Of a stretch of DNA of 40,458 nucleotides, positions 8,524 to 26,469 are shown one piece after another. The notes beneath the pieces were generated by a model. That model was not told where the DNA came from, made no database searches, and saw nothing but the letters and a program-made list of their open reading frames with translations. The stretch is from an uncultured Erysipelotrichaceae bacterium (GTDB taxonomy: Bacteria; Bacillota_I; Bacilli_A; Erysipelotrichales; Erysipelotrichaceae): NCBI GenBank assembly GCA_903789495.1, contig CAIFEQ010000018.1:1-40458 (forward strand). The letters run 5' to 3'. The position numbers were made by a program, and so were the translations under genes. The stretch's first letter is position 1. Each line of letters begins with the position of its first letter.

Positions 8524-8529
8524 TGCCTC

Positions 8530-9170: not shown

Positions 9171-9200
9171 GGATGAGGGATCCTGGTGTTGAGGGGAAAT

Positions 9201-10160
9201 ATGACGAGAACAAGCGTGATCGTACCGGTTTATAATGTGGCTGCCTATCTGCCGGCCTGTCTGGATTCCCTGCTGGCCCAGACCGACCCGGATTTTGAGA
9301 TCGTGGCGGTCAATGACGGTTCCACCGATGGCTCGGCGGACATCCTGTTTCAGTATGCCGACCGGGACAAGCGGGTGCGTATCATCTCCAAGCGCAACGG
9401 GGGTCTCAGCGATGCCCGCAATGCCGGCATTGCCCAGGCCAGAGGACGCTATATCGCCTGTGTCGACAGCGATGATCTGGTGCGGGAAGACTTCCTGGCC
9501 TCCCTGGTCAAGCAGCTGGAGGAAACCGGCAGTCAGATCGCCGTCAGCGACATGGAATATTTCTGTGAAGACGGACACACCAGCGCGTCAAGCGGCGGCG
9601 ACTTCACCGTCTCGGATGTCCGCCGGAATCCGCAGCTGATTGCGATCAACAACAGTGCCTGCAACAAGCTGTATCAGAAGGAACTGTTTGCCGGCCTGCA
9701 GTTTCCGGTCGGCCGCTACTATGAGGACCTGGCCCTGATCCCGATTCTGCTCTACCGGGCCGAACGGGTCTGCAAGGTCCCGGCACCGCTGTACCGCTAC
9801 CGGCAGCGCAGCGGTTCCATTGCCCATACGGCCAGTCCGAAGATTTTTGACATCTACGATGCCATCGATGATGTGGTGGACTATGTCCGCAGCCACGGGA
9901 ATGAACCGGCCGTGCTGACGGAACTGTATCATTTATATATCGTGCATGGTCTGGACCTGACGACCCTGCGGATCAGAGACTTCGATGACCGCAGTCTGCG
10001 GGCCTCGTATCTGCGTCAGAACATGGCGCGTCTGAGGCAGTCTTACCCGGACTTCGAGAAGGACAGTGCCTGCCGGAAGGCACCGTTCCGGAAAAAGATC
10101 CTCTTTCACCTGCTGAAAGAGGATAAAATGGAACAGGTACTGAAGATCTATGACCGCTAA
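9201..10160 (+). CDS. Glycosyltransferase family 2
   Basis: A 319-residue GT-A fold enzyme. It opens with SVIVPVYNVAAYLPACLDSLLAQ, carries VNDGSTDGS and the metal-binding DSDD near residue 93, and has the GGLSDARNAGI block. The ATG at 9201 sits just after GAGGGG; an in-frame GTG at 9186 is less likely. The family adds a sugar from a nucleotide-sugar donor to a lipid-linked acceptor at the cytoplasmic face. The C-terminal region is like those of wall and capsule rhamnosyl/galactosyl-type transferases, but donor and linkage cannot be read from the sequence. It overlaps the next gene by 11 bases, so the two are translationally coupled. Confidence 0.92.
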   Translation: MTRTSVIVPVYNVAAYLPACLDSLLAQTDPDFEIVAVNDGSTDGSADILFQYADRDKRVRIISKRNGGLSDARNAGIAQARGRYIACVDSDDLVREDFLASLVKQLEETGSQIAVSDMEYFCEDGHTSASSGGDFTVSDVRRNPQLIAINNSACNKLYQKELFAGLQFPVGRYYEDLALIPILLYRAERVCKVPAPLYRYRQRSGSIAHTASPKIFDIYDAIDDVVDYVRSHGNEPAVLTELYHLYIVHGLDLTTLRIRDFDDRSLRASYLRQNMARLRQSYPDFEKDSACRKAPFRKKILFHLLKEDKMEQVLKIYDR

Positions 10161-11304
10161 GATCCGGATCCTGTTTGTCAACGATGAGATGAAGATGGGC
10201 GGTGTCGCCCGGGTGCTGAACAACCTCATGCAGGCACTGCCCCGGGACCGCTATGACATCGACCTGATGGTTCTTCATAAAGAAGGCATGCTGCTGAAGG
10301 AGATCCCTGACGATGTCCGTGTTTTCGAAGGCAGTGCTTTTTTCCATCCCGTGGATGAAACGCTGCTGGATCTGCTGCACAGTCACCGCTGGGGAGAGGT
10401 GCTACGCAAGCTGCGTCTGCTTTTTTATATGAAGACCGGCCTGATCCGGGGCCGGATCCGGAAGGAACGGGCCGCCAGGCACCTGGAACATTACGATGTG
10501 GAAGTAGCCGCCAAGGAAGGCTTCTGCACCATCTTCACCGCCTGCGGGGATTCCCGGAAGAAGATCAACTGGGTGCTCACGGACTACAGCGTGCGCAATT
10601 ACAGCAAGAACCACATGCACCTGGTCCGGCAGGCCCTGAAGCATATCGATCTGAATATTGCGGACTCGGAACAGGCACTGATCGCCTATGAGACCGTCTT
10701 CCGCGTGAGCAACGGCATGACGATTCATAACCTGATGGATGACCGGAAGGTACGGCAGGCCAGAGATCTGCCCCTGGAACAGCCGCTGGAACCGGGTCTG
10801 ACCATCATCAACATTGCCCGTTTCCATCCCCAGAAGGGACTGGAGCGGCTGATCCTGGCCAGTCAGGCGGCGCTGGAAGCCGGCTGTCCGCATACCCTGT
10901 ATCTGGTGGGGGGCGGGGAAGAGGAACAGAAGCTGCGGGATCTGGTGCAGTCGCTGCACATGACAAACGTCCGCTTCCTGGGCTATCTGGCCAATCCCTA
11001 TACACTGCTGGCGCACTGCGACCTGTTTGTGCTGAGCAGCTACTACGAAGGCTTTGCGACCATTGTCAATGAGAGTCTGATTGCCCATACCCCGGTGCTG
11101 ATGACCAGTGTCGGCGGCTGCCGGGAACAGCTGACCAGACCCGAGCACGGCTGGATCGTCGCCAATAATCAGGAAGCCCTGAACCAGGGCCTGGTGAAGG
11201 CTCTTAAGGATCCGGACCGGCTGCACGAGATGAAACAGCAGCTGCAGAACTACGAATACCCCAACCAGGAAATTCTGGAACGTTTCATGGAGATTCTTCA
11301 GTAA
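10150..11304 (+). CDS. Glycosyltransferase family 4
   Basis: A 384-residue GT-B fold enzyme. The N-terminal half starts IRILFVNDEMKMGGVARVLNNL (acceptor side, with the typical GG loop). The C-terminal half begins with INIARFHPQKGLERLI, and the donor-site motif SYYEGFATIVNESL shows the family E-x7-E pair near residues 298-306. It would use a nucleotide sugar to extend the lipid-linked glycan. The start lies inside the previous gene and the stop is directly followed by the next ATG, so it is a middle member of the operon. Specificity is unknown. Confidence 0.92.
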   Translation: MTAKIRILFVNDEMKMGGVARVLNNLMQALPRDRYDIDLMVLHKEGMLLKEIPDDVRVFEGSAFFHPVDETLLDLLHSHRWGEVLRKLRLLFYMKTGLIRGRIRKERAARHLEHYDVEVAAKEGFCTIFTACGDSRKKINWVLTDYSVRNYSKNHMHLVRQALKHIDLNIADSEQALIAYETVFRVSNGMTIHNLMDDRKVRQARDLPLEQPLEPGLTIINIARFHPQKGLERLILASQAALEAGCPHTLYLVGGGEEEQKLRDLVQSLHMTNVRFLGYLANPYTLLAHCDLFVLSSYYEGFATIVNESLIAHTPVLMTSVGGCREQLTRPEHGWIVANNQEALNQGLVKALKDPDRLHEMKQQLQNYEYPNQEILERFMEILQ

Positions 11305-12888
11305 ATGAACAGAGAAGTTTCCGGAAAAGAAAAGATCCTGCATCGGCTGACCCTGCTCTTTGTGGCCATTCAGCCGCTGATCGATCTGGATTATCTGGCC
11401 TATACCTGGCTGGATCAGTACGGTCTGCCCCGGCCTTCGACGATCATCCGGTTTCTGATCCTGCCGGCTCTGATCCTGGCCTGCTTTTTCCTGCGGGAAA
11501 AGAAGCGCAGGAAGGTCTTTCTGCTGGCTCTGGTTTACGGACTCCTGCTCGGGGTGTATTTTGTCCTCCACTGCCGGCAGTGCAGTGCCCTGGTGGAAAA
11601 GCTGGATCTGACCGATAACTTCTACTTCAGCACCTGGCAGGAGCTGACCTATGTGCTCACGCTGGTGCTGCCATACGGCATGATCTATCTGTTTGTGCGG
11701 GAACAGGTCAGCCGGCAGGAACTGCAGAAGATCTGTGAGTGTCTTTCCCTGATCATCTCGGTGCCCATCCTGCTCGGCGATCTGTTTGTCTTCGGCATGA
11801 GCACCTACTACGGCTATACGGTGGCCAACTTCTTTGCCTGGTTCACCGGGATCTACGACTGGTATCATCCCCGCACCCTGGCTTCGAAGTTCTTCTTCAA
11901 TGAGGGCAATACCATCGGCATTCTGCTCTTCATGATCCTGCCGCTGCTGTATGCCTTCTATCTTCGAAGCGAGGATCCCAGAGAACGGCGGCGGCTGGGT
12001 ACGGAAATCTTCGTGCAGAGCCTGAGCATGCAGATCCTGGCCACCCGGGTGGCGACCTACGGAGCCGTGCTCATGCCTGCCTGCATGCTGGTGCTGTGGG
12101 CTCTGGATCATCTGCTGCACCGCAAGGAACATCCATCCCGGCTGGCCCGGGGCAGGATCGTCTTCTGCCTGTGCGCCGTGGGGGTCTTCGGCGGCATGCT
12201 GAACTGGACCCCGGCGGTACAGAATCAGAAGGTGGATGCGGTCAATGATACCGCGCTGCTGCATAACGGGATGGCCGCGGCCGGCATGGAAGAGCTGGCC
12301 AATGCCGAAGATCTGATCCCCGGCACGGCAGAATACATCAACTTCTATGTCTACATGTTTGAAACCTACGGCATCAACGCCCGCTATATCCAGAGCGTGC
12401 CGTCCATGTACTATACCGAATACTATTCCTACCAGCATGACCCGAAGTTCTGGGTGGATGTGACCTTCATGCCGGTCTTTGACCGGGTCAGCGGCAGACA
12501 GATCGAGCAGATCTTCTTCAGCTACAAGTACCAGAATCTGACCGGAACGGAGAAGATCCTGGGCATGGGCTATTCGACCTTCATGAATGGTTCCATCGTG
12601 CTGGAGAAGGACTTCAAGCAGCAGATCTATACGCTGGGCTATGCCGGCTTCCTGCTGTGCGTGTTCCCCTGGATTGCCGTGATCCTGTACGGGCTGTACT
12701 GGTTCCTGCGGAAACACCGGCAGCTGTTTACCTTTGAGAATGCTTCGCTGGTGGTGGCCCTGATGGCCGGCATGGGTGCGGCCTGGCTGAGCGGGCATGT
12801 GCTCGACCAGTTCCTGACCACAAGCTTTGCGGCCCTGCTGGTTGCCCTGCTGCTGGGCAGGGTCCGGGAGGCGCGTCATGCGGCCTAA
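11305..12888 (+). CDS. O-antigen polymerase/ligase-like membrane protein (Wzy/WaaL-like)
   Basis: A 527-residue polytopic protein with about ten membrane segments and a large outer loop (about residues 300-425) before the last two or three spans, the usual layout of O-antigen ligase family proteins. The N-terminus (ILHRLTLLFVAIQPLIDLDYL) is typical of the Firmicutes branch. It would polymerise or transfer lipid-linked repeat units on the outer face. It starts one base after the GT4 stop and overlaps the next GT2 by 11 bases. Polymerase and ligase cannot be told apart here; no Wzz-type chain-length gene is nearby. Confidence 0.72.
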   Translation: MNREVSGKEKILHRLTLLFVAIQPLIDLDYLAYTWLDQYGLPRPSTIIRFLILPALILACFFLREKKRRKVFLLALVYGLLLGVYFVLHCRQCSALVEKLDLTDNFYFSTWQELTYVLTLVLPYGMIYLFVREQVSRQELQKICECLSLIISVPILLGDLFVFGMSTYYGYTVANFFAWFTGIYDWYHPRTLASKFFFNEGNTIGILLFMILPLLYAFYLRSEDPRERRRLGTEIFVQSLSMQILATRVATYGAVLMPACMLVLWALDHLLHRKEHPSRLARGRIVFCLCAVGVFGGMLNWTPAVQNQKVDAVNDTALLHNGMAAAGMEELANAEDLIPGTAEYINFYVYMFETYGINARYIQSVPSMYYTEYYSYQHDPKFWVDVTFMPVFDRVSGRQIEQIFFSYKYQNLTGTEKILGMGYSTFMNGSIVLEKDFKQQIYTLGYAGFLLCVFPWIAVILYGLYWFLRKHRQLFTFENASLVVALMAGMGAAWLSGHVLDQFLTTSFAALLVALLLGRVREARHAA

Positions 12889-13941: not shown

Positions 13942-14868
13942 ATGTCACTGCTGTCGGTCGTCGTACCATGTTTCAATGAAGAAGAAACGGTTCAGCTTTT
14001 CTATGACGCGGTTACCCCGGTCCTGGAAAAGCTGCCTCAGGAATATGAACTGATCTTCGTGAACGATGGTTCCCGGGATCACACCCTGGCTCTGCTGCAG
14101 GAACTGTACCAGAGTCATCAGGACACGATCCGGGTGATCGACTTCAGCCGCAACTTCGGCAAGGAGTCGGCTCTGCTGGCCGGTCTGCGGGCCGCTCAGG
14201 GGGACTATGTCATCGTCATGGATGCCGATCTGCAGGATCCGCCGCAGCTGATTCCGAAGATGTTTGAAACCATGGAAGCCCATGACGATGATGTCGTCGG
14301 CACCCGCCGGGTCACCCGGGAAGGAGAGCCGAAGATCCGCAGCTTCTTCGCCCGGCAGTTCTACAGACTGATCAACCGCTGGACCGAAGTGGAGATCGTC
14401 GACGGGGCCCGGGATTTCCGGCTGATGAAGCGCCCCGTTGTCGATGCGATCCTGTCCCTGCAGGAATACGGCCGCTTCTCCAAGGGCCTGTTTGCCTGGG
14501 TCGGCTTCCGCTGCGAATATCTGGAGTATGAAAACGTAAAGCGGGCCGCCGGGGAGACCAAGTGGTCCTTCTGGAAACTGTTCCGCTATGCCATAGACGG
14601 CATTGTCGAATTCACCAGCGCACCCGCGGTTCTGGCCGCCAGGGCCGGCATTCCGCTCACCGCGGTCATGCTGGTGGTGCTGATCGTGGAGCTGATTCTG
14701 GCCCTGTGCGGCAGGGCAGTCACCTTCGAAGCCCTGCTGCTGTCCGTCATTCTCTTCCTTGCCGGTCTGATCCTGAGTGCCATCGGTATTCTGGGGGAAT
14801 ATCTGAGCAAGACCTATAATGAGACCAAGAAACGTCCCAGTTACATCATCCGGAAATTTTACCACTGA
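13942..14868 (+). CDS. Polyprenyl-phosphate glycosyltransferase (GtrB/DPM1-like GT2)
   Basis: A 308-residue protein. A GT-A domain at residues 1-225 has VVPCFNEEETV, FVNDGSRDHT, IDFSRNFGKE and the MDADLQDPP metal motif, all typical of the GtrB/DPM1 branch. Two C-terminal membrane helices follow at about 232-255 and 265-290. Such enzymes move a hexose from a nucleotide sugar to undecaprenyl phosphate. After flipping, GT-C enzymes use that lipid donor outside the cell; the PMT-family gene at 1-1923 and the membrane protein at 4104-6149 are candidate users. It opens a transcription unit with the anchored protein and the LCP ligase. Confidence 0.9.
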   Translation: MSLLSVVVPCFNEEETVQLFYDAVTPVLEKLPQEYELIFVNDGSRDHTLALLQELYQSHQDTIRVIDFSRNFGKESALLAGLRAAQGDYVIVMDADLQDPPQLIPKMFETMEAHDDDVVGTRRVTREGEPKIRSFFARQFYRLINRWTEVEIVDGARDFRLMKRPVVDAILSLQEYGRFSKGLFAWVGFRCEYLEYENVKRAAGETKWSFWKLFRYAIDGIVEFTSAPAVLAARAGIPLTAVMLVVLIVELILALCGRAVTFEALLLSVILFLAGLILSAIGILGEYLSKTYNETKKRPSYIIRKFYH

Positions 14869-14889: not shown

Positions 14890-15654
14890 ATGAGCAATAA
14901 AACTGCAGAAAAGAAGACGGCAAATGCCGATACGACAACGGCGACCGCCCGCCGCCAGGAGAAACGCCGGCGGGCCCGGATCAACACCCGTCTGGAAGTC
15001 ACGCTGCTGGCGGTATCGTGTGCCGTTGTGGCCGCACTGATCTTCAACCTGGTGCGGATTGCGCGGACCGGTGTTTTTGCCTCGGGCACCGACACGACGC
15101 TGACCCTGGATACGGATAATTCCATGTCCAACGATGAGTACACCATCGGCAACAACCCGACGGATCTGGAAAAGGAATATTTCCAGGAACTGACCGATGC
15201 CATGGAAACCGGCGACAGTCTGGCGATCTCCGAGGCGCTGTGCAAGGAGTTTGCGGCCGACTATCTGACCTGGCGCAACAAGGACGGCACCTATGAAGTC
15301 GGCGGTCTGCAGTATATCTACGGCCCCCAGTATGTGGCCTTCAACAACTACAGCCGCTGGAACTATATGAATGACTTCGATCTGTATCTGTCCCAGTATG
15401 GCCGGGATCATCTGCCCCAGGTCGCTTCCGTGGAAGTGACAGACAGCTATGACAATGGTTCCTTTGAGGTCAAGCTGGAAGATCCCCGCCGGACACTGGA
15501 CAGCTACTATGTGGCGGTGACGATTACCTACGAAGCGGACAGCGTCCTGGATCCGAGCCGTTTCGTGGATCATGGCACCTTCGTCGTCGTCAACAATGAC
15601 GGCCGCTATGAGATTGCTGAAATCTATCTGTTTCAGCCGGGAGTAGAAGAATGA
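14890..15654 (+). CDS. Membrane-anchored extracytoplasmic protein of unknown function
   Basis: A 254-residue protein I do not recognise. A basic, Thr/Ala-rich cytoplasmic tail (about 1-35) leads into one membrane span (about 36-58), then an outer domain. That domain has an alpha part rich in acidic residues (DLEKEYFQELTDAMETGDSLAISEALCKEF) and a beta-rich part ending in VVVNNDGRYEIAEIYLFQ, reminiscent of NTF2-like or SnoaL-like folds. The stop overlaps the ATG of the LCP gene by four bases (ATGA), so the two are translationally coupled and probably act together in wall-polymer attachment (inference). Confidence 0.75.
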   Translation: MSNKTAEKKTANADTTTATARRQEKRRRARINTRLEVTLLAVSCAVVAALIFNLVRIARTGVFASGTDTTLTLDTDNSMSNDEYTIGNNPTDLEKEYFQELTDAMETGDSLAISEALCKEFAADYLTWRNKDGTYEVGGLQYIYGPQYVAFNNYSRWNYMNDFDLYLSQYGRDHLPQVASVEVTDSYDNGSFEVKLEDPRRTLDSYYVAVTITYEADSVLDPSRFVDHGTFVVVNNDGRYEIAEIYLFQPGVEE

Positions 15655-17831
15655 CTGCAGAAAAGAAGAAAAAGAACGGCTCCCGGGTCAGAAACAATGT
15701 TCTGCTGACCGTCCTGACCATTCTGGCCAATGCCGCCGTCATCTATGTGCTGTTCAATACGACCCAGTACTCGAACCTGAGCAAGCGGGCCTTTGTGCTG
15801 GCCAACATCCTGCTCATCGTGCTGCTGCTGGTGATGAATGTCTCGCTGATGCTGGCCATCCGGTCACACAGGAAGAGCACCTATGTGATCAACATTGTCC
15901 TCATGTGCCTGTTCCTGGCGGCCGGCGGCTATGGTACCTATGCGGTGACCCGGGCCAACTCCGCCGTCAGCAAGATGACGAGCACGACCAGCACCGAATC
16001 CGTCTCGACCAGTCTGGTGGTCTATTCCGAGGACGGGACGCAGACCATCACCGACATTTCCGAGCTGGACGGCAAGACGGTCGGCTATGCGACCGACACC
16101 AGCACGGCGGAACTGGGTCAGAACCAGATCACCGCGGCCGGCGTGAATGTTTCCTACAAGCAGTACACTGACTACTCCTCGCTGATTGTCGGCCTGCTGA
16201 GCAACGAAGTGCAGTGTGCCATTCTGCCGACCAACTATACCTCGATCTTTGCCAATGAGACCGGCCTGCAGGACTACCTGGCCAATACCGCCAGCATCGC
16301 AGACTTCACGGATGAGGTCACGGTGACCAGTGAGGCCGGAGATGAGCAGGATCTGACCTCGGAACCGTTTACCGTGCTGCTGATCGGCAACGCGGACGGT
16401 CTGTCGGACACGATGATTCTCTGCTCGGTCAACCCCATCAGCATGCGGGTGACGATGTCCTCGCTGGCGCGTGACTCCTATGTGCCGATTACCTGCTATG
16501 GCGGGGCCTACAACAAGCTGAACTCTGCCAACGCGGTCAGCCGTGACTGCCTGATCAGTACCATTGAAGAACTGGTCGGGGTCAGTATCGACTACTATGT
16601 CGAAACCAACTTCGAGGGCGTCGTGGAAATCGTCGATGCCCTGGGCGGCATCGTCGTGGACAACGATACGGAATTTGTCGGCCAGACTTCTTCTTCCACC
16701 CGCGGCACCTATACCGTCTGGGTACCGGCCGGCGATGATGTGGTGCTGAACGGCGAGCAGGCGCTGGCCTTTGCCCGGGAGCGCTATGCCTATGCGACCG
16801 GTGACTTTGCCCGTCAGGAACATCAGCAGCAGGTGATCGAGGCGATCATCGCCAAGATCATGCGGACCCGGGATGTCAATACCTTCCTGGATGTGCTGGA
16901 TGCGGCCGGGGACAACATCAAGACCAACATCTCGATCAGTCCGATGCCCAGCTTCGTCAAATACGCCATTCAGAAGTCGAACCGTCTGTATGACAAGAAC
17001 CACGTCGAGAATGTCTTTGACATCATCACCTCCAGGGTGACCGGCTATTCTTCCGGTCTGTGGGATGAAAGCCTGCAGCTGTCGCTGTATATCTACCGGC
17101 TGTGGCAGGGTTCCCTGGATGATACAAAGGCAGCCATCGTGCGCAATACCGACATGACCTCCACCCCGTCCGATGAGCTGGAAGTGGTATGGTCCTGCAA
17201 CTGGATCATCTCCGAGCCGGTCATCTCGCAGGATTACTATTCCGAAACGCAGATCGAATCGGAGGTGCCTGCAGAAGCGGTTGAGAGTACCGAAGCCGGA
17301 TGCCTGACGGCGGGCAAGTACTGGTACAACGATACCTGCAACGACTATCCGGAGAGCACCGATACCACCACGACAACGGATACGACGACGACAACGGATA
17401 CGACGACGGAGGATACGACAACGGATTCGTCCGCTTCATCCTCAGCGTCAGCTGATTCGTCTGCCAGTTCTACAGCGGATTCGACGACCGATACGTCATC
17501 CGGTTCCTCTTCGTCACCGTCCAGTGATTCGAGTACCTCTTCTGATACAACGGATGACAGCTCGTCCACCGATCCAGGCACGAGTGACTCTGGTTCCACG
17601 GATACCAGTTCGGATGGGACCTCCACCGATGATGGGTCGACAGACACCTCGTCGGATACGTCCACGGACACCTCCACAGATACCGGAACGGATACGTCAA
17701 CGGATACATCAACGGATACGTCTACTGACACTTCCACGGATACGTCAACCGATACCACAACCGATACGACGACCGATACAACCACAACGACGGACAGCAC
17801 CACAACCACTTCCACAGCCGCCAGCGGATGA
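15651..17831 (+). CDS. LytR-CpsA-Psr (LCP) wall-polymer ligase with extra domains
   Basis: A 726-residue protein. Three membrane spans lie at about 14-37, 44-66 and 74-96. Residues about 110-230 (VYSEDGTQTITDISELDGKTVGYATDTSTAEL and on) look like a periplasmic-binding-protein-type lobe. The LCP domain spans about 236-405, with the LLIGNADGLSDT start, SLARDSYVPI with its Arg-Asp, the DALGGI strand, LNGEQALAFARERY and GDFARQEHQQQ; these supply the conserved Asp and Arg residues that bind the pyrophosphate lipid. From about 565 the tail is almost only Thr, Ser and Asp. LCP proteins transfer undecaprenyl-pyrophosphate-linked glycans to peptidoglycan, which fits the locus. The binding-protein-like insert and the very long tail are unusual. 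A terminator follows. Confidence 0.9.
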   Translation: MTAEKKKKNGSRVRNNVLLTVLTILANAAVIYVLFNTTQYSNLSKRAFVLANILLIVLLLVMNVSLMLAIRSHRKSTYVINIVLMCLFLAAGGYGTYAVTRANSAVSKMTSTTSTESVSTSLVVYSEDGTQTITDISELDGKTVGYATDTSTAELGQNQITAAGVNVSYKQYTDYSSLIVGLLSNEVQCAILPTNYTSIFANETGLQDYLANTASIADFTDEVTVTSEAGDEQDLTSEPFTVLLIGNADGLSDTMILCSVNPISMRVTMSSLARDSYVPITCYGGAYNKLNSANAVSRDCLISTIEELVGVSIDYYVETNFEGVVEIVDALGGIVVDNDTEFVGQTSSSTRGTYTVWVPAGDDVVLNGEQALAFARERYAYATGDFARQEHQQQVIEAIIAKIMRTRDVNTFLDVLDAAGDNIKTNISISPMPSFVKYAIQKSNRLYDKNHVENVFDIITSRVTGYSSGLWDESLQLSLYIYRLWQGSLDDTKAAIVRNTDMTSTPSDELEVVWSCNWIISEPVISQDYYSETQIESEVPAEAVESTEAGCLTAGKYWYNDTCNDYPESTDTTTTTDTTTTTDTTTEDTTTDSSASSSASADSSASSTADSTTDTSSGSSSSPSSDSSTSSDTTDDSSSTDPGTSDSGSTDTSSDGTSTDDGSTDTSSDTSTDTSTDTGTDTSTDTSTDTSTDTSTDTSTDTTTDTTTDTTTTTDSTTTTSTAASG
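17347..17828 (+). repeat. Low-complexity Thr/Ser/Asp-coding repeat
   Basis: Degenerate 6- and 12-base units based on GATACGACNACN and GATACGTCAACG encode (S/T)D(T)(S/T) repeats. The densest parts are 17359-17420 and 17640-17810. It is in frame with the LCP gene and resembles a Ser/Thr-rich wall-spanning stalk. Confidence 0.85.
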
Positions 17832-17835: not shown

Positions 17836-17867
17836 GCAGAACTGCCTTCACCGGCAGTTCTGCTTTT
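17836..17867 (+). terminator. Rho-independent terminator after the LCP gene
   Basis: A perfect 11-base stem (17836-17846 with 17853-17863), a 6-base loop and TTTT. Confidence 0.85.
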
Positions 17868-17903: not shown

Positions 17904-17912
17904 TGTTAGAAT
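17904..17912 (+). promoter_or_regulatory. Extended -10 promoter of the dTDP-sugar operon
   Basis: TGT plus TAGAAT (TGn-TATAAT type), with AAGGA at 17925-17929 before the ATG at 17940. No good -35 is seen. Confidence 0.5.
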
Positions 17913-17939
17913 AGACGGTACTGAAAGGAACAATTGGCC

Positions 17940-18851
17940 ATGAAAGGAATTATTCTCGCCGGCGGCAGCGGAACCCGGCTGTATCCCCTGACCCGGGTGA
18001 CTTCCAAGCAGCTTCTGCCGGTATATGATAAGCCGATGATTTACTATCCGCTCAGCACCCTCATGCTCGCAGGGATCCGGGATATTCTGATCATTTCCAC
18101 CCCGCATGATCTGCCGAACTTTGAAAAACTGCTTGGCGACGGCAGTCAGTTCGGGGTTTCCTTTACCTATCAGGTTCAGGAACATCCGGACGGTCTGCCG
18201 CAGGCTTTTATTCTCGGGGCGTCCTTTATCGGCAGGGATAATGTCTGCCTGATTCTGGGCGACAACATCTTCTACGGCAACCACTTCACCGGCATGCTCA
18301 GGGAAGCGGTGGAGAATACGGAAAAGAACCACCGGGCCACGGTATTCGGCACCTACGTGAATGATCCGGAACGCTATGGCGTGGCGGAGTTTGACGAGAC
18401 GGGCCGGGTGCTGTCACTGGAAGAAAAGCCGGCCGCGCCGAAGTCCAACTATGCGGTGACAGGTCTGTATTTCTTTGACAACCGGGTCATTGAGTATGCC
18501 CGGACCCTGAAGCCAAGCGGTCGGAATGAGCTGGAGATCATGGATCTCTGCCGCATCTACCTGAATGACCAGGAACTGGACATGCGGGTCCTGGGCCGCG
18601 GGTTTGCCTACATGGATACCGGGACGATTGATTCCCTGTCCCAGGCGGGCGACTATGTGCGGCTGGTGGAAGAAGTGCAGGGCATCAAGATCTCGGTACC
18701 GGAAGAGATCGCCTACTACAACGGCTGGATCACGGTGCAGCAGGTGCTCGAGGCGGCGGACCAGTATGGCCACAGCCCCTACGGAACGCATCTGAGAAAG
18801 ATCGCCGCCGGCAGTATCAGGACGACTTATACGAAGAAGGAAAGGCGCTGA
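17940..18851 (+). CDS. rfbA: Glucose-1-phosphate thymidylyltransferase
   Basis: A 303-residue RmlA of normal length. It shows the nucleotide-binding start [17 protein letters not shown], the [18 protein letters not shown] block, LGDNIFYG near residue 104 and [20 protein letters not shown]. It makes dTDP-glucose from dTTP and glucose-1-phosphate. The ATG at 17940 follows AAGGA; an in-frame ATG six bases earlier is less well placed. It is the first gene of a tight four-gene operon, its stop overlapping the next start by one base (TGATG). No rfbC or rfbD is present, so the end product is probably not dTDP-L-rhamnose. Confidence 0.97.
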
Positions 18852-19741
18852 TGCGGGTCATCTTTCTGGGCTGCGGCTATCTGGGCTATAACCTTTCTGT
18901 CCGGCTTCCGGCCGGCACTGACATGGAGATGTGGGGCATCACCAGTCCCTACAGTGACCGGCAGCCGGCTTTTAAGCTGGTCAATGTGCTGAACCGGGAA
19001 GAACTCTGCCGCCAGAACGTCCAGGATGCGGTGATCGTGGATACCGTCGGCCTGATCGCCCGCAGTGAGAAGGCGGACGATGAGGCGGAAAAGCTGGAAC
19101 GGCTGAAACAGAAACAGGAAGAACTGCTGGCCGTGCTCAGACAGGGCGGCGCCCGGCGCTATGTGTTTCTGAGTTCCGGGGGCACGATCTATGGCTCCTC
19201 GGCTGTTCCGGTCAGGGAAGAGGATCCGCTGCAGCCGCAAACGCTCTATGCCCGTTCCAAGAGGATCGGCGAACAGGCCGTGCAGGAAAGCGGCCTGCCG
19301 TATCTGATTCTGCGGCTGGCCAATCCCTATGGCGGTTATCAGGATGCGGCCAAGAAACAGGGCGTGATTCCCATCCTGCTGCGCAAGGCGCTGAAAGGGG
19401 AAGTCTTCGAGCAGACCACGGCGGACAGCTCGGTCCGGGACTATCTCTACATCAGCGATCTTTCGGCGGTACTGAACCGGCTGCTGGAACTGGGGACAGA
19501 AAACGAGATTCTCAATGTCGGCAGCGGCCGGGGCACAACTCTGCTGGAAATCAAGCAGACCGTGGAACAGGAGACCGGCCGGAAGCTGAAAGTTGTCAGT
19601 CATCCCGATCCCGGCCAGGTGGCACAGATCGTGCTGAATACCGGCAAGCTGCGGCGCCTGACCGGTTTTGTCCCGCAGGTTTCGCTGCGGGAAGGGATCC
19701 ATCGGGAAGCGGAACGGATCCGCTGGGAGGAAGGACTATGA
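18851..19741 (+). CDS. NAD(P)-dependent SDR reductase/epimerase, candidate dTDP-4-keto-6-deoxyglucose reductase
   Basis: A 296-residue extended short-chain dehydrogenase. The nucleotide-binding motif FLGCGYLGYNL is at the N-terminus, the catalytic Ser-Tyr-Lys set appears as FLSSGGTIYG near 114-123 and YARSKRIGE near 140-148, and RLANPYGGY follows. It sits between rfbA and rfbB in an operon ending with a Glf-like mutase, matching the rmlA-rmlB-fcf1-fcf2 gene set known for dTDP-D-fucofuranose. The likely step is therefore reduction of dTDP-4-keto-6-deoxyglucose at C4 to dTDP-D-fucose (Fcf1-like). This rests on context. A C4-epimerase or 6-deoxytalose route is the main alternative. Confidence 0.75.
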   Translation: MRVIFLGCGYLGYNLSVRLPAGTDMEMWGITSPYSDRQPAFKLVNVLNREELCRQNVQDAVIVDTVGLIARSEKADDEAEKLERLKQKQEELLAVLRQGGARRYVFLSSGGTIYGSSAVPVREEDPLQPQTLYARSKRIGEQAVQESGLPYLILRLANPYGGYQDAAKKQGVIPILLRKALKGEVFEQTTADSSVRDYLYISDLSAVLNRLLELGTENEILNVGSGRGTTLLEIKQTVEQETGRKLKVVSHPDPGQVAQIVLNTGKLRRLTGFVPQVSLREGIHREAERIRWEEGL

Positions 19742-20760
19742 AATTTCTGGTTACCGGCGGGGCCGGGTTCATCGGGGGCAATTTCATTCTGGAAATGGTC
19801 AGAACCCATCCGGAAGACACCTATGTGAATCTGGACAAGCTGACCTATGCCGGCAGTCTGGAGACCCTGAAGGAGGTCGAAGGTCGGCCGAACTATCGTT
19901 TCGTGAAAGGCGATATCTGCGACCGGGATCTGGTGGAGCAGCTGTTTGCCGAAGAACACTTCGATGCGGTGATCAACTTTGCGGCAGAGACGCACGTGGA
20001 CCGTTCCATCGAAGATCCGCATCTCTTCCTGAAGACCAACATCATCGGGGTGCAGGTGCTGATGGATGCCTGCCGGAAATACGGCATCGGCCGCTATCAT
20101 CAGGTCTCCACCGATGAGGTGTATGGCGATCTGCCGCTGGACAGGCCGGATCTGCTGTTCCGGGAAGACACGCCTCTGCATGCCTCTTCCCCGTACTCGG
20201 CCTCCAAGGCCAGTGCGGATCTGCTGGTGCTGGCCTATCACCGCACCTATGGTCTGCCGGTGACGATCTCGCGCTGTTCCAATAACTACGGCCCCTATCA
20301 GTTCCCGGAGAAGCTGATTCCGCTGATGATCATCCGGGCCCTGCATGATGAATCCCTGCCGGTCTACGGCAAAGGGCAGAATGTGCGGGACTGGCTGTAT
20401 GTGACGGATCACTGCGAAGCCATTGACCTGGTGGTGCGGAAGGGCCGGGATGGCGAGATCTACAACATCGGCGGTCATAACGAAAAGAGCAATCTTGAGG
20501 TCGTGCGCACCATCCTGGCCCAGCTGCACAAGCCGGAAAGCCTGATTCACTTCGTCAAGGACCGCCCCGGTCATGATCTGCGCTATGCGATGGATCCGGG
20601 CAAGATCGAACGGGAACTCGGCTGGCGTCCGAAACATGCCTTCGCCGAAGGCATTCAGGAAACCGTCCGCTGGTATCTGACGCACGAAGACTGGTGGCAG
20701 AACATCATCAGCGGTGCCTATCAGACCTACTACGAAAGGATGTATAAGGATCGGACATGA
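19738..20760 (+). CDS. rfbB: dTDP-glucose 4,6-dehydratase
   Basis: A 340-residue RmlB of standard length. It has VTGGAGFIGGNF for NAD binding, AAETHVDRSI near residue 82, STDEVYGDLP with the catalytic Asp-Glu pair near 122, YSASKASADLLV with the catalytic Tyr-Lys, and the SRCSNNYGPYQFPEKLIPL block. It turns dTDP-glucose into dTDP-4-keto-6-deoxyglucose. It overlaps both neighbours by four bases (ATGA), so translation of the whole operon is coupled. Confidence 0.97.
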   Translation: MKFLVTGGAGFIGGNFILEMVRTHPEDTYVNLDKLTYAGSLETLKEVEGRPNYRFVKGDICDRDLVEQLFAEEHFDAVINFAAETHVDRSIEDPHLFLKTNIIGVQVLMDACRKYGIGRYHQVSTDEVYGDLPLDRPDLLFREDTPLHASSPYSASKASADLLVLAYHRTYGLPVTISRCSNNYGPYQFPEKLIPLMIIRALHDESLPVYGKGQNVRDWLYVTDHCEAIDLVVRKGRDGEIYNIGGHNEKSNLEVVRTILAQLHKPESLIHFVKDRPGHDLRYAMDPGKIERELGWRPKHAFAEGIQETVRWYLTHEDWWQNIISGAYQTYYERMYKDRT

Positions 20761-21929
20761 AAAAGGAAGCGCTGATTGTCGGGGCAGGCTATGCCGGCAG
20801 CGTCTCGGCCCGGGTACTGGCCGAAGCCGGCTGGCAGGTCACCATTCTGGAGAAACGGAATCACATTGCCGGCAATGCCTATGACTATATCGATGAAAAC
20901 GGCGTCCGGCGGCATCAGTACGGCCCGCATATCTTTCATACCAGCAGCCAGCAGGCAGTGGACTTTCTGTCCCGCTTCACGGACTGGTATCCGTATGAAC
21001 ACCGGGTGCTGGGCTATATCGAGGGACAGCTGGTGCCGATTCCCTTCAATCTGACCTCCATCGACAGGCTGTTTGAACAGGAGAAGGCAGAACATCTGAA
21101 GCAGGTGCTCACGGACAGCTACGGCCGGGAAACCAAGGTGCCCATCCTGCAGCTGCGGCAGAGCAGCGATCCGGAAGTGCGCCGGCTGGCCGAGTATATC
21201 TACGAGCATGTCTTCAAGTACTACACGATGAAGCAGTGGGGCTATTCGGCCGAAGAGATCGATCCGGCCGTGACGGGCCGGGTGCCGGTGCATATCTCCT
21301 ATGACGACCGCTACTTCCAGGACAGCTTCCAGAAGATGCCTGCCGAAGGCTTCACGGTCATGTTCCGGAAGATGCTGGATCATCCGCGGATCCGAGTGCA
21401 GCTGAATACCGAAGCCTGCGAACATATCCGGATTGATCTTTCCCAGCAGAAGATTCTGGTGGACGGGCAGGTGTTTGACGGCCTGCTCATCTATACCGGC
21501 CTGATCGATGAACTGCTGCAGTACTGCCAGGGAGATCTGCCGTACCGCAGTCTGGAGTTTGAGATCCAGACCCATGAGGGGGACTATCAGCCGGTGGGCA
21601 CGGTCAACTATCCCACCCCGGCTTCCCAGCATCCCTACACGCGGATCTCGGAATACAAGAAACTGATGCGGCCCGATACCCAGCCGAAGGACAGGACCAC
21701 GATTGCCATCGAATATCCCTGTGTCTACCAGCGTAACGGCCAGAAGGGCAGGGTGCCGTACTATCCGGTATTCACTGCGGCCTCCCGGGCGCAGTATGAA
21801 GCCTATCGGGCCCAGGTGGCCGGGATGGAAAATCTGCTGCTGTTAGGCAGACTGGCGGAATACCGCTACTACAACATGGATGCGGCGGTCGTCAGTGCCC
21901 TGAAAGCCTGTGAAGCCTATCTGGACTGA
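20757..21929 (+). CDS. Flavin-dependent pyranose mutase (Glf/Fcf2 family)
   Basis: A 390-residue UDP-galactopyranose mutase family protein. An FAD-binding GAGYAGSVSARVLAE start is followed by EKRNHIAGNAYDY and YGPHIFHT. The active-site Trp lies in KQWG, the mobile-loop Arg in GRVPV, a Tyr in DDRYF, the second Arg in YTRISEYK, and GRLAEYRYYNMD closes the flavin site. The family converts a nucleotide-linked pyranose to a furanose. Glf (UDP-Gal) and Fcf2 (dTDP-fucose) belong to the same family. Placement as the last gene of an rfbA/SDR/rfbB operon favours dTDP-fucopyranose as substrate; UDP-galactopyranose remains possible. A terminator follows. Confidence 0.88.
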   Translation: MKKEALIVGAGYAGSVSARVLAEAGWQVTILEKRNHIAGNAYDYIDENGVRRHQYGPHIFHTSSQQAVDFLSRFTDWYPYEHRVLGYIEGQLVPIPFNLTSIDRLFEQEKAEHLKQVLTDSYGRETKVPILQLRQSSDPEVRRLAEYIYEHVFKYYTMKQWGYSAEEIDPAVTGRVPVHISYDDRYFQDSFQKMPAEGFTVMFRKMLDHPRIRVQLNTEACEHIRIDLSQQKILVDGQVFDGLLIYTGLIDELLQYCQGDLPYRSLEFEIQTHEGDYQPVGTVNYPTPASQHPYTRISEYKKLMRPDTQPKDRTTIAIEYPCVYQRNGQKGRVPYYPVFTAASRAQYEAYRAQVAGMENLLLLGRLAEYRYYNMDAAVVSALKACEAYLD

Positions 21930-21990: not shown

Positions 21991-23439
21991 ATGGACAGAA
22001 GACTGCTCAGAAACTATCTGTACAATATCCTCTACCAGGTCGTAAAGATCGTCCTGCCGCTGATCCTGGTCCCCTATACCGCCTCGCATATCGGCGAGGG
22101 TGCCCTGGGCATCTATCAGTATGCCGGTTCGATCATGAACTGGTTCATCCTCTTCGGCATCCTGGGCGTGAATACATACGGAAACCGGGAGATTGCCAAG
22201 GTACGCAACGATAAGGAAAAGCTGAACCGGACCTTCTTTGAGATCTTCGCCATGCAGGTCACGGACATGCTCATCGCCATGGCGGCCTTCTTCCTGTTCA
22301 TCCATTTCTTCGTCACGGAGAATGCCTTCTACTATAAGCTGACCGGTCTGACAATGATCGCATCCATGCTGGACATCACCTGGTTCTTCTATGGCGTGGA
22401 GGACTTCAAGAAGGCCAGCATCCGGAACATCATCGTCAAGTTCCTGGGTGTGGTGCTGATCATGAACTTCTGCCACACCCCGGATGACCTGGATCTGTAT
22501 ATTCTCTTCAATGTCGGGGCCGAGCTGGTGGGACAGGCGATCATGTTCGTGCAGCTGCGCCAGTACATTACCTTTGAGAAGATCTCCCTGCGGGATGCCT
22601 ACCGGCATCACTTCAAGGCGACCTTCCAGCTGTTTATCCCCACCATTGCGATCTCGGTCTATACGATGTTTGATCAGACCATGATCGGGGCACTGTACAA
22701 CAGCGATCACGTGGTCTACTACAATACCTCGATGAACATCGTCAAGATGTTCCTGACCTTCATCACGTCGATCGGCTCCGTGATGCTGCCACGGGTGACC
22801 AATGTCTATTACAATGAGAACGACGGCCTGGCCAAGGCCGAGCATCTGATCCGACAGACAATGAAGATTGCCTGGCTGCTGGCCTTTCCGATGTGCTTCG
22901 GCATGATGGCCATCGCTCCGAACTTCATCAGCTGGTATCTGCCGGAATGGCCGATCGTCGCCCAGCTGATCGTGCTGGGCTGCCCGATCATCATCTTCAT
23001 CTCAACCTCCAATGTCACCGGCACCCAGTACATGGTGCCGACCGGCATGTATAATCAGTACACAGCCAGCGTGGTGGCCGGCAGCTGTATCAACTTCTGC
23101 ATCAACTGGATCCTGATTCCCGAGTATGGTGCCTTCGGAGCCATCATCGGGTCCGTCGCCGCGGAATTCTCGGTGATGATGATCCAGATGATCCTGATCC
23201 ATGACAAGGTCACGATCGGCTTCCGCAGCCGCTCCTACCGGATCTATGTGCTCGGCTCGCTGCTCATGTATGCCATCGTCTCCGTCCTGGGCTGGCAGCT
23301 GCCGGCGGATGTGCTGGGCACGGTGATACAGATCCTCTGCGGCGTGCTGATCTACGGATTGGTGCTGATTCTGACCAGGGAAGAGCTGACCATGAAGATC
23401 CTGCGGCACCTGAAAGAAAGAAGAACCCGTCATGCCTGA
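21991..23439 (+). CDS. Wzx-like oligosaccharide flippase
   Basis: A 482-residue member of the polysaccharide transport (PST/MOP) family with about 12-14 hydrophobic helices. The N-terminus (LLRNYLYNILYQVVKIVLPLI), the IGEGALGIYQYAGSI loop and the FNVGAELVGQ region are typical of Firmicutes flippases. It would move undecaprenyl-pyrophosphate-linked glycan units to the outer face of the membrane. The start is fixed by the family N-terminus even though there is no Shine-Dalgarno. The stop overlaps the next GT2 start by eight bases. A second flippase lies at 26480-28015. Confidence 0.9.
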   Translation: MDRRLLRNYLYNILYQVVKIVLPLILVPYTASHIGEGALGIYQYAGSIMNWFILFGILGVNTYGNREIAKVRNDKEKLNRTFFEIFAMQVTDMLIAMAAFFLFIHFFVTENAFYYKLTGLTMIASMLDITWFFYGVEDFKKASIRNIIVKFLGVVLIMNFCHTPDDLDLYILFNVGAELVGQAIMFVQLRQYITFEKISLRDAYRHHFKATFQLFIPTIAISVYTMFDQTMIGALYNSDHVVYYNTSMNIVKMFLTFITSIGSVMLPRVTNVYYNENDGLAKAEHLIRQTMKIAWLLAFPMCFGMMAIAPNFISWYLPEWPIVAQLIVLGCPIIIFISTSNVTGTQYMVPTGMYNQYTASVVAGSCINFCINWILIPEYGAFGAIIGSVAAEFSVMMIQMILIHDKVTIGFRSRSYRIYVLGSLLMYAIVSVLGWQLPADVLGTVIQILCGVLIYGLVLILTREELTMKILRHLKERRTRHA

Positions 23440-24412
23440 GTTCAGCGTCATCGTTCCGGTCTATAATGTCGCGGCTTATCTGCCGCGCTGCCTGGATTCC
23501 CTGCTGGCCCAGACGTTTGAGGATTATGAAGTGGTCGTGGTCAACGACGGCTCCACGGATGAAAGTCCGGCGATCCTCCGGGAATATGAAAAGAAGGATC
23601 CCCGGATTCACGGGATCAGCCAGGCCAACGGCGGTCTGTCCGCGGCCCGCAATACCGGCATCCGCGCCGCCCAGGGGCAGTATTTCTGCTTCGTCGACAG
23701 CGATGACTTCGTGGAGAAGGATCTGCTGGCTGCGGGACACCAGTGCCTCAGCCAGACCAGTGCGGACTTCATCAGCTTTGACTATTATCAGTACCATGTG
23801 CAGGACGGCAGCCGGGAGATCATCTCCTCCGGCCTGGCGGAAGGGCAGGTCTACACCCTGGCACAGCATCCGGAGATCATCGTCCGGCTCAAGAATGCGG
23901 CCTGGAACAAGTTCTATGCCCGCTCCCTGTTCCAAGCAAACGACATCTGGTATCCGCCCGGGTCCTATTACGAGGATCTTGGTACGACGTACCGGCTGCT
24001 GGCCCGGGCCGAGCGGATCTGTTTTCTGCATCAGCCTTACTACAACTACCTGGTCGACCGGCCGGGGAACATCACGCTGCAGTTCAACCAGAGAACCTAT
24101 CAGATTTTTGATATGATACAGATGGTTCTGGATGACTACCGTACGCTCGGCCTGGATCAGCAGTACTATGAAGAGCTGAAATACCTCGGCGGTGTGAATA
24201 TTCTGGAATGTCTGAAAAAGACCAGAAGCTGCGCGGATCTGAAGGCGGATGATGCCTTCATCGATGCCGCTTTTGCGTTTCTGCAGGAACACTGGCCGGA
24301 GTTTCCGGCCTGCCGGTATCCGATTCTGCAGCAGAAACATGATGCGATCTATGCCAGTCCGCGGAAGCTGAAGGCGTATCTGCGGCTGCGGCGGCTCAGA
24401 AGGGGGAAATGA
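23432..24412 (+). CDS. Glycosyltransferase family 2
   Basis: A 326-residue GT-A enzyme starting FSVIVPVYNVAAYLPRCLDSLLAQTF, with VNDGSTDES, GGLSAARNTGI and the DSDDFVEKD metal site near residue 91. The C-terminal half holds the YYEDLGTTYRLL acceptor-side motif common to capsule and wall GT2 enzymes. It is translationally coupled to the flippase before it and three bases from the next GT2. Donor and linkage are unknown. Confidence 0.92.
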   Translation: MPEFSVIVPVYNVAAYLPRCLDSLLAQTFEDYEVVVVNDGSTDESPAILREYEKKDPRIHGISQANGGLSAARNTGIRAAQGQYFCFVDSDDFVEKDLLAAGHQCLSQTSADFISFDYYQYHVQDGSREIISSGLAEGQVYTLAQHPEIIVRLKNAAWNKFYARSLFQANDIWYPPGSYYEDLGTTYRLLARAERICFLHQPYYNYLVDRPGNITLQFNQRTYQIFDMIQMVLDDYRTLGLDQQYYEELKYLGGVNILECLKKTRSCADLKADDAFIDAAFAFLQEHWPEFPACRYPILQQKHDAIYASPRKLKAYLRLRRLRRGK

Positions 24413-24415: not shown

Positions 24416-25465
24416 ATGAGTGCTCAAGTCACAGTGATTGTTCCGGTATACAAAGTAGAGAATTACCTGCGCAGATGTCTGGATTCCCTGCTGAAGCAGG
24501 ACTGTCCGGATCTGCAGATCCTGGTGGTCAACGACGGTTCCCCGGATGGCTGCGGCGACATCATCCGGGAATATGTCGAGGCCAACCGGGAGAAGATGGC
24601 CGGCATTGAGAAGAAAAACGGCGGCTGGGGCTCGGCGATTCAGCTGGGCATCCGGGAATGCAGGACTCCGTATTTTCTGGTCTGCGACGGGGATGACACC
24701 CTGGAGCCGGACTGCATCTCCACCCTGCTGAATCTGGCCAAAGTAAGCGGGGCCGATCTGACCTGCGGTGCCCGGATGGTGCTGCGCAAGGGCAGTCCGG
24801 ATAAGACCTACGACTGCGGATACAATAAGGACTATGTCAGCCTGAAGAGCAATACGGTCTACAACAAGGGCACGGCAGCCTTTGATGATCTCTTCTACCT
24901 CAACCCGGCGCCGCATGCCAAGCTGTACCGGAAGGAGATTGCCGAGAACATCCGCTTCACCGAACGGGTGGGCTATTGCGACAACATGCTGTTCTTTCTC
25001 AGTCTCCTGCAGGCCCGCAAGGTCATCTATACCGACAAACCCCTGGCCGATTACCTGATTGACCGGGAAGGCAATTCGATGACGGATGTCAGCTATGCGG
25101 CCATGAATGCCCAGATCCTGGTATTCAAGAATCTGGTCAACCAGGCCGAGCGGCTGCCGGAGGTACCGGACTTCTTCTGGTACCGGATGTTTGAAAGCTA
25201 CAAGTATCTGCTCTACGAGAGCCGGAACATGAAGGGAACTCGGGAGGAGTACGAAAGCATCCTGAACTACCTCGGCACCTTCATGCAGAAGATCAGCCGG
25301 CATGGCCAGGCGGTGATGAAGTATTACCGTTCCCGCAGCAAGTCTGCATTCCTGGAGCAGATCAGCGATCGTTTTCTGCTGAATCCCGCCCGCTTTGAGA
25401 AGGCCTATGCCCGGATCGTGCGGAAGATGAGCGAAGCCTTCCAGCCAAGCCAGAAGGCGGACTGA
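24416..25465 (+). CDS. Glycosyltransferase family 2
   Basis: A 349-residue GT-A enzyme starting VTVIVPVYKVENYLRRCLDSLLKQ, with VNDGSPDGC and a DGDDTLEPD metal site near residue 93. It differs from its neighbours: the usual GLSxARN block is replaced by KKNGGWGSAIQLGI, and the tail is longer, with a Lys/Arg-rich end. So it is a distinct branch within this locus. The ATG at 24416 follows AAGG at a short distance. It closes the operon begun at 21970 unless transcription continues into 25510. Confidence 0.9.
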   Translation: MSAQVTVIVPVYKVENYLRRCLDSLLKQDCPDLQILVVNDGSPDGCGDIIREYVEANREKMAGIEKKNGGWGSAIQLGIRECRTPYFLVCDGDDTLEPDCISTLLNLAKVSGADLTCGARMVLRKGSPDKTYDCGYNKDYVSLKSNTVYNKGTAAFDDLFYLNPAPHAKLYRKEIAENIRFTERVGYCDNMLFFLSLLQARKVIYTDKPLADYLIDREGNSMTDVSYAAMNAQILVFKNLVNQAERLPEVPDFFWYRMFESYKYLLYESRNMKGTREEYESILNYLGTFMQKISRHGQAVMKYYRSRSKSAFLEQISDRFLLNPARFEKAYARIVRKMSEAFQPSQKAD

Positions 25466-25509: not shown

Positions 25510-26469
25510 ATGAAGCTTTCGGTAATTGTCCCCATGTACAATGTGGCGGCCTATGTCGACCGCTGCCTGCAGTCGCTGCAGGCCCAGACCCTGAAGGATC
25601 TGGAAGTGATTCTGGTCGATGACGGCTGCACGGATGAAACGCCGCAGATCGCCGCCCGCTATGCGGAAGCGGATCCGGAGCACTTCCGGCTGATCCACAA
25701 GGCCAATGGCGGCCTCAGCGATGCCCGCAACGCCGGCCTGCCGCTGGCGCAGGGACAGTATGTGGCCTTTCTGGACTCCGATGACTGGATCGAACCGGAC
25801 TGCTATGAAAAGATGGTCCGGGCTCTGGAAGAGCAGGGGGGCGATGTGTGTCTGGCGGATCTGGAATGCTGGTATCCGGACGACGCGCAGCGCTGCCATG
25901 TCATGAAAGGGCTGAGCAGCTGGCCGGCGGCCAGCCGGAACAGGCAGGCGTTTCTTTCACCGCTGTTTGCCTGGAACAAGGTCTATGACCGCCGCTTTTT
26001 CTTTGCCGGGCAGCTGCGCTATCCGGTCGGCAGCTGGTATGAGGATATTCCGGTGAGCACGCTGATCTTTGCCCGCAGCCGGCAGATTGTCTATGTGCCG
26101 GACTGTCTGTTTCATTACCGCCAGCGTTCCGGCAGCATCATGGCAAACACCAGCGATCCCCGGCTCGGGCAGATCTTCGACATCATGGCCCTGCTGCGGC
26201 AGGAGTTCGAAGATGCCGGCCTGGCCGAGGCCTACCACGATGAACTCGAATACCTGCATGTGGAGCATCTCTGTCTCTACGGCATGTTCCGCTTCATCCG
26301 TTCCGATTCCTGGAAGACCTATTACCGCCGGGCCCGAGATGTCATGGCGGTCTGCTATCCCGGCTGGAAGAAGAATCCGTATCTGCGGAATCTCTCCGCC
26401 AGGAACCGCTTCTTCCTGAAGTGGTATAATCCTCTCACAGCCGGTCTGTTCAACCGGAAGATCCGTTAA
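25510..26469 (+). CDS. Glycosyltransferase family 2
   Basis: A 319-residue GT-A enzyme starting KLSVIVPMYNVAAYVDRCLQSLQAQ, with VDDGCTDET, GGLSDARNAGL and the DSDDWIEPD metal site near residue 93. A C-terminal region has WYEDIPVSTLIF and HLCLYGMFRFIRS. It is closest in layout to the enzymes at 9201 and 12878. Its stop overlaps the ribosome binding site of the second flippase, so the two form one unit. Donor unknown. Confidence 0.92.
   Translation: MKLSVIVPMYNVAAYVDRCLQSLQAQTLKDLEVILVDDGCTDETPQIAARYAEADPEHFRLIHKANGGLSDARNAGLPLAQGQYVAFLDSDDWIEPDCYEKMVRALEEQGGDVCLADLECWYPDDAQRCHVMKGLSSWPAASRNRQAFLSPLFAWNKVYDRRFFFAGQLRYPVGSWYEDIPVSTLIFARSRQIVYVPDCLFHYRQRSGSIMANTSDPRLGQIFDIMALLRQEFEDAGLAEAYHDELEYLHVEHLCLYGMFRFIRSDSWKTYYRRARDVMAVCYPGWKKNPYLRNLSARNRFFLKWYNPLTAGLFNRKIR

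Follow-up and report, generated by a model that had tools for sequence, protein, structure and literature searches.

A candidate dTDP-D-fucofuranose operon in a cell-wall-type glycan cluster of Erysipelotrichaceae

Results

A four-gene operon within a glycan cluster

The stretch of DNA analysed here (the window) comprises 40,458 nucleotides from an uncultured Erysipelotrichaceae bacterium (assembly GCA_903789495.1, contig CAIFEQ010000018.1) and is contig 18 of a 60-contig, 2.1-Mb genome that is 94.8% complete. Its forward strand carries, in this order, rmlA, a gene for a short-chain dehydrogenase/reductase (SDR), rmlB, and a gene for a Glf-family mutase, with successive overlaps of 1, 4, and 4 bases (Table 1). 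A preliminary description of the locus had reported this order and the short overlaps correctly, and had proposed that the four genes make dTDP-D-fucofuranose (dTDP-D-Fucf) for a wall glycan. We find this to be the best single reading of the operon and, on balance, a somewhat probable one.

The start of rmlA is the ATG at 17940; the program-made list of open reading frames (ORFs) begins at a TTG at 17934. A hairpin with a T-rich tail lies between the upstream LCP (LytR-CpsA-Psr) gene and rmlA, and therefore the operon probably begins its own transcript. Between 15500 and 27000, nine terminator-like sites were observed against 6.7 expected from shuffled sequences, and the stem of this hairpin is the longest of the nine, with 11 pairs compared with 7 in the runner-up. 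By eye only, an extended -10-like TGTTAGAAT can be seen at 17904-17912 and a Shine-Dalgarno-like GAAAGGA at 17923-17929. No promoter was reported by the scan upstream of rmlA near 17904-17912.

The predicted products around the operon include a Wzx-type flippase, several glycosyltransferases (GTs), an O-antigen ligase/polymerase-like protein, and an LCP transferase, and the whole appears to form a glycan cluster of cell-wall type, as had been suggested earlier. Three large ORFs of the window (151-1944, 6106-8613, and 26717-28015) had no Pfam match at E 0.001, and the last of these had no NCBIfam match either.

Table 1. Positions of the operon, of its neighbours in the window, and of GT10 genes at related loci
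Feature	Position	Strand	Basis
rmlA (rfbA), glucose-1-phosphate thymidylyltransferase	17940..18851	+	TIGR01207 438.6 bits, cut-off 360.65
SDR, proposed dTDP-4-keto-6-deoxy-D-glucose 4-reductase, Fcf1-like by function	18851..19741	+	extended SDR, under NCBIfam cut-offs
rmlB (rfbB), dTDP-glucose 4,6-dehydratase	19738..20760	+	TIGR01181 496.8 bits, cut-off 365.1
Glf-family FAD-dependent pyranose-furanose mutase, Fcf2-like by proposed function	20757..21929	+	TIGR00031 413.3 bits, cut-off 303.75
Terminator-like hairpin, 11-bp stem then TTTTATT, LCP gene/rmlA intergenic	17836..17863	+	terminator scan and sequence
Wzx-type flippase	21991..23439	+	PF01943 86 bits
Family 2 glycosyltransferase	23432..24412	+	PF00535
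Family 2 glycosyltransferase	24416..25465	+	PF00535
Family 2 glycosyltransferase	25510..26469	+	PF00535
LCP glycopolymer transferase, upstream	15651..17831	+	TIGR00350 111.4 bits, cut-off 62.3
PgfS-like glycosyltransferase, upstream	13942..14868	+	NF047588 307.7 bits, under cut-off 500
O-antigen ligase/polymerase-like membrane protein	11305..12888	+	PF13425 165 bits; no NCBIfam match
GT2 (9186-10160) and group 1 glycosyltransferase (10150-11304), same cluster	9186..11304	+	Pfam
GT10 genes at six related loci	L103:5526-6524, L109:10163-11161, L105:7968-8969, L106:405-1403, L113:2456-3454, L114:1847-2845		PF00852
GT10 gene, seventh locus	L119:9076-10074		by similarity

Sugar-nucleotide enzymes of the genome

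So far as sequence profiles can establish it, the first and third genes are rmlA and rmlB and the fourth belongs to the Glf family. RmlC (PF00908) and FdtA gave no match in the whole genome, and RmlD_sub_bind (PF04321) matched in four places that are all accounted for, namely the operon SDR, the operon rmlB, a GalE encoded elsewhere (446 bits, cut-off 262.3), and an HpnA-like SDR that falls under every NCBIfam cut-off, so that none of the four is an rfbD. The lack of rfbC and rfbD, noted before for the locus, therefore extends to the entire 94.8% complete genome. The profile of DegT-type aminotransferases (360 positions, cut-off 19.8 bits) matched twice but only in part, over 79 positions with 34.5 bits and over 109 with 27.4 bits; we take both as probable other pyridoxal-phosphate enzymes. 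No GMD was found above cut-off. With no RmlC or FdtA, no GMD above cut-off, and only partial DegT matches, the SDR therefore appears to be the only evident enzyme in this genome that would use dTDP-4-keto-6-deoxyglucose, the product of RmlB. The operon mutase is the single PF03275 (GLF) gene; a second protein matches the profile with 19 bits over 36 residues, which looks like an FAD motif only.

The SDR

The SDR passes none of the NCBIfam cut-offs listed, its best score being to galE (71.8 bits against 262.3), and the copies from two cultured relatives also remain under all of them. A role as GalE was ruled out on this score and on the separate GalE, whose presence above cut-off means that the SDR is not needed in that capacity. 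A role as RmlD beside a hidden RmlC was likewise ruled out for this genome, given the lack of any RmlC match and a score of 41.5 bits to TIGR01214 (RmlD), for which the cut-off is 224. These figures also bear on an L-rhamnose pathway in which rmlC and rmlD went unseen and the SDR is a divergent RmlD. Such a pathway could shelter behind the incompleteness of the genome and the 40-bit match of the SDR to RmlD_sub_bind, but we consider it highly improbable; among the same-genus genomes (60 relatives were compared, 36 of them in the same genus with the own genome counted), 8 of the 15 with the SDR have no RmlC match.

In an alignment of 31 SDR sequences, Y133 and K137 (the YxxxK motif) are invariant and the GxGxxG-type glycines are kept. 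The AlphaFold model of the SDR (predicted local distance difference test, 94.1) was compared by Foldseek. UDP-glucose 4-epimerases and dehydratases of the RmlB type made up most of the nearest folds, and RMD-type reductases appeared at ranks 20 and 35. When PDB sequences were searched by profile, GalE, RmlB, and other extended SDRs came up, with no discrimination among them. The acidic residue that follows the second strand in RmlB and GalE seems by eye to be missing from the SDR, which would suit an NADPH reductase; this is a weak hint and was not used as evidence. We infer the function of the SDR solely from gene position and pathway. It is conceivable that the operon makes another dTDP-6-deoxyhexose, with the SDR giving D-quinovose or, with epimerisation, 6-deoxy-D-talose or a similar sugar, and the mutase making the matching furanose. 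The scores of the SDR and its two cultured counterparts would allow this, as would the lack of a reductase of known stereochemistry at the top of the fold search, but we regard it as improbable since Glf-family mutases with named substrates act on galacto- or fuco-configured sugars in the available sections of PMC12369002 and PMC3624792. The exception given there is HS:41.17, which also takes 6-deoxy-L-altrose (PMC12369002).

The mutase and its relatives

The mutase exceeds the cut-off of the "UDP-galactopyranose mutase" profile TIGR00031 and also matches PF03275, so it would be labelled a UDP-galactopyranose mutase (UGM), as the preliminary description anticipated. In a tree of 48 proteins, for which the program warned of long-branch joins, 27 operon mutases form one clade with a support of 99/97. 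Its sister is a third Glf class, 47%–48% identical to the window mutase, from three genomes of the same order. The Ensifer, Nostoc, and D. radiodurans mutases fall outside both groups, and a 100/100 branch separates the UGMs of E. coli, Klebsiella, and actinobacteria from the operon-mutase side. The mutase thus stands apart from the latter enzymes, but its relation to UGMs as a whole is ambiguous, as the D. radiodurans UGM lies on the same side of the tree.

The third class occurs at L099, L100, and L101 (genomes G038, G043, and G048) with a glycosyltransferase alongside and, in L099 and L101, a PAP2 gene (Pfam) beside it. The stretches read at these three loci held no match to the window rmlA, rmlB, or SDR.

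Another Glf class of the genus resembles the E. coli enzyme. Five aligned same-genus members are 60%–62% identical to E. coli Glf, and because of this identity the class probably consists of true UGMs. Over 12 aligned rows, the class is 56%–62% identical to E. coli Glf and 31%–33% identical to the window mutase. The members from G003 and G035 score like the five aligned ones, and those of G012, G021, and G034 were placed in the class solely from 32%–34% identity to the window mutase.

Conservation of the locus across the family

A collection of 84,980 species was scanned with two peptide patterns from the SDR alignment; 75 stretches matched and 36 SDR loci were confirmed. The scan was not exhaustive, as an SDR in G303 (36% identical) lies outside the 36 loci, and 18 of these loci lie on contigs equal in length to contigs of the genomes compared elsewhere in this study, so that the locus and genome sets are not independent. 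The loci are labelled as Erysipelotrichaceae, including a Solobacterium sp., Holdemania, and Anaerorhabdus furcosa, or, for L142 and L145, as "uncultured Firmicutes"; the Gram-positive setting proposed earlier is therefore borne out. The operon is carried by the cultured strains Holdemania filiformis DSM 12042 and Anaerorhabdus furcosa ATCC 25662.

The gene order recurs, and its conservation across a family exceeds chance. Directly 3' of the SDR lies rmlB in 35 of the 36 loci (the exception is L149), and rmlA lies 5' of it in 34; L151 retains a truncated piece of rmlA where its contig ends, and L149 has none. Next after rmlB comes an operon-class mutase in 28 loci, among them those of Holdemania and Anaerorhabdus, with the copies in L122 and L134 truncated by contig ends. 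Among the remaining loci, the contig of L121 ends in rmlB and L149 is without rml genes.

Among 392 genomes sampled from the phylum, seven others had mutases 54%–63% identical to that of the window, and all seven belong to the same family. In four of these, the loci (L178, L179, L180, and L182), with SDR and rmlB beside the mutase, are repeats of the L139, L143, L140, and L148 contigs. In G303, rmlA, SDR, and rmlB are followed by one gene and then the mutase.

Co-occurrence in the genus

Within the 36 same-genus genomes, full SDR matches were found in 15 (43%–53% identity apart from the own genome), with G029 holding only a fragment at a contig edge, and operon-class mutases were found in 16 (63%–70% identity apart from the own, partial in G020). 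An rmlB homologue adjoins all 16 of these mutases. In L076 (G009:C231), this is a divergent homologue, 55% identical to the window rmlB, on a 3166-base contig that ends just upstream.

Of the 15 SDR genomes, 13 also carry the operon mutase (Fisher p = 2e-5, kinship ignored). The SDR operon of G003 and G005 lacks the operon mutase. The reverse holds for G001, G009, and G029, where the mutase is present beside no full SDR; their contigs break off within rmlB, shortly past it, or within the SDR. In L215 (G035), the cluster rmlA-rmlB-rmlD-rmlC, which also has a wzx, includes an E. coli-type UGM. Rhamnose enzymes accompany the E. coli-type UGM in L215, whereas the SDR accompanies the operon-class mutase in the window.

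Discussion

The operon would make dTDP-D-Fucf in four steps. RmlA would form dTDP-glucose, RmlB would convert it to dTDP-4-keto-6-deoxy-D-glucose, the SDR would reduce C4 to give dTDP-D-fucopyranose, and the reduced-FAD mutase would contract the ring to dTDP-D-fucofuranose. Glycosyltransferases would then use the sugar, Wzx would flip the lipid-linked repeat, and LCP would join the polymer to the wall. We infer the reaction of the SDR and the stereochemistry of its product, the substrate of the mutase, and the location of the polymer. In favour of this scheme are the overlapping four-gene operon behind its terminator-like hairpin, the enzymes absent from the own genome, the conserved locus, the co-occurrence of SDR and operon mutase in the genus, the distinct mutase clade, and the pathway logic of E. 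coli O52 as given in the available sections of PMC10888714. The gene set, context, and absences uphold the earlier proposal in part, while the ambiguous relation of the mutase to UGMs leaves its last step less secure.

Several observations weigh against dTDP-D-Fucf as the product, and most of them fit an alternative in which rmlA, SDR, and rmlB yield dTDP-D-fucopyranose, and the mutase acts as a normal UGM, providing UDP-galactofuranose (UDP-Galf) for that same glycan. Among characterised mutases, the D. radiodurans UGM comes closest (44% identity, 296 bits). Of its UDP-galactopyranose (UDP-Galp) contacts, tabulated in the available sections of PMC3624792, all but F175, which is replaced by V, are kept in the ten operon members printed. 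There is slight variation on the FAD side, with Y in place of F39 in the window and L140 and F in place of Y371 in L116. The conserved contacts leave UDP-Galp a possible substrate of the mutase, as does the match to TIGR00031, and a GalE is present in the genome. The mutase is missing from five of the 36 SDR loci (L130, L136, L137, L138, and L150), and the first four of these still keep wzx and the three downstream glycosyltransferases at similar identity. In L125, the mutase slot behind rmlA-SDR-rmlB is taken by an E. coli-type UGM (5369-6490), which is 59% identical to E. coli Glf. None of the 36 genomes has both mutase classes (16 have the operon class alone and 10 the E. coli type alone; p = 8e-4, kinship ignored), and G003 and G005 carry an E. 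coli-type UGM on another contig, where the stretch read around it held no match to the window wzx. This mutual exclusion, the swap in L125, and the pattern of G003 and G005 would also be expected of interchangeable UGMs. Of three further members with 54%–57% identical mutases (G303, G205, and G152), the SDR is part of the cluster in G303 alone; the G205 cluster has rmlA and rmlB without such an SDR, and the 15 kb read in G152 include no rml genes, the contig ending 0.9 kb upstream of the mutase. Regarding the SDR itself, fold and profile searches indicate GalE- or RmlB-type enzymes and single out no reductase. Finally, 7 of the 15 SDR genomes do have an RmlC match, so its absence describes the window genome and is not a rule.

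A separate supply of UDP-Galf nonetheless fits less well with a mutase that is fixed directly after rmlB in 28 of the 36 loci, by a 4-base overlap in the window, and with the separate E. coli-type UGM of the family, which in L215 keeps company with rmlABDC. The contact residues are also uninformative as a substrate test, as Fcf2-type enzymes may keep the same ones. We therefore hold the Galf alternative to be possible but doubtful, and retain dTDP-D-Fucf as the better reading. Under either of the two, the operon would produce dTDP-D-fucose, and we regard that broader statement as likely.

If this is true, many members of a gut-bacterial family put D-fucose or D-fucofuranose into a surface glycan. 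The annotation "UDP-galactopyranose mutase" would then hide D-fucose or D-fucofuranose, and Galf would be predicted wrongly for these genomes. The two cultured carriers of the operon named above make the prediction testable through wall chemistry.

In six of the 36 same-genus genomes (G001, G007, G022, G023, G029, and G033), a GT10 gene adjoins the mutase, overlapping its end by 4 bases (Table 1); the gene in L103 also shows FucT_N. GT10 had no match in the window genome. GT10 is known as a family of GDP-L-fucose-dependent fucosyltransferases. GMD above cut-off is absent from five of the six GT10 genomes, the exception being G033, and fucokinase/GDP-fucose pyrophosphorylase (PF07959) is absent from all six; these genomes are 80%–98% complete and no search for Fcl was made. 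A further, unlikely possibility is that Erysipelotrichaceae have their own dTDP-D-Fucf pathway with a lineage-specific 4-reductase and that the GT10 of one sub-lineage transfers D-fucofuranose from dTDP-D-Fucf. This neighbour bears on whether GT10 is tied to GDP-L-fucose.

Counterparts of the O52 genes were sought among 5,426 E. coli genomes by DNA search, and neither the window mutase nor the L142 SDR found a match there. With the L135, L142, and L148 mutases, the matches listed were glf-annotated genes, together with a DarT-type gene and an unrelated hypothetical. With K-12 glf, the best 60 of 610 matches were all glf-annotated (64.8%–100% identical), and five glf genes from the E. coli regions were 62%–74% identical to K-12 Glf. 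Seven E. coli regions were read; five are labelled with O-types other than O52 (O96, O116, O124/O164, O132, and O85), and L176 is not an O-antigen locus. In the remaining region (L171:2145-13789), the O-antigen cluster of E. coli 1916D18 holds rfbB, rfbC, an unassigned SDR, glf, and rfbA with no annotated rfbD. It was not accepted as the O52 locus, as it has no O-type label and carries a true rfbC (53% identical to that of L175). Its SDR is 23% identical to the window SDR over 204 residues, and the cluster possibly makes another unusual dTDP-deoxysugar. Two mutase loci from Ensifer and Nostoc, read among the matches listed in plasmid protein searches, had no rml neighbours.

D-Fucf is rare, and the available sections of PMC10888714 record it in E. 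coli O52, Pectinatus, Pseudomonas syringae, and Eubacterium saburreum. Given Pectinatus and Eubacterium saburreum in that record, D-Fucf chemistry in Bacillota is not new. No title on D-Fucf in Erysipelotrichaceae was found among the matches listed in the literature searched, which covers open-licence papers, and the matches listed there for an O52 genome or for wall sugars of the family were of no use.

Among the known systems, the E. coli-type Glf/UGM of the genus shares family and reaction type with the window mutase at 31%–33% identity. The D. radiodurans UGM (3hdq) is closer in sequence and in its UDP-Galp contacts but lies outside the operon clade, and within 5 kb around its locus there is no match to the window SDR, rmlA, or rmlB, another SDR being annotated there. 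In C. jejuni HS:41, CDP-D-fucofuranose is made by a C4-reductase and an FAD-dependent pyranose/furanose mutase after a dehydratase, an arrangement like that proposed here; the nucleotide, however, is CDP and not dTDP, and a 3,5-epimerase controls the product (available sections of PMC12369002). In E. coli O52, dTDP-D-Fucf is made by RmlA, RmlB, Fcf1, and Fcf2; a protein of Ochrobactrum that carries a UGM annotation shares 51% identity with Fcf2 (available sections of PMC10888714). The window differs from O52 in belonging to Bacillota, in the order rmlA-SDR-rmlB-mutase, and in its wall-type LCP cluster. Compared by pathway description only, the four activities proposed for the window are the same as those of O52, and on the best reading the pathway in the window would work like that of O52.

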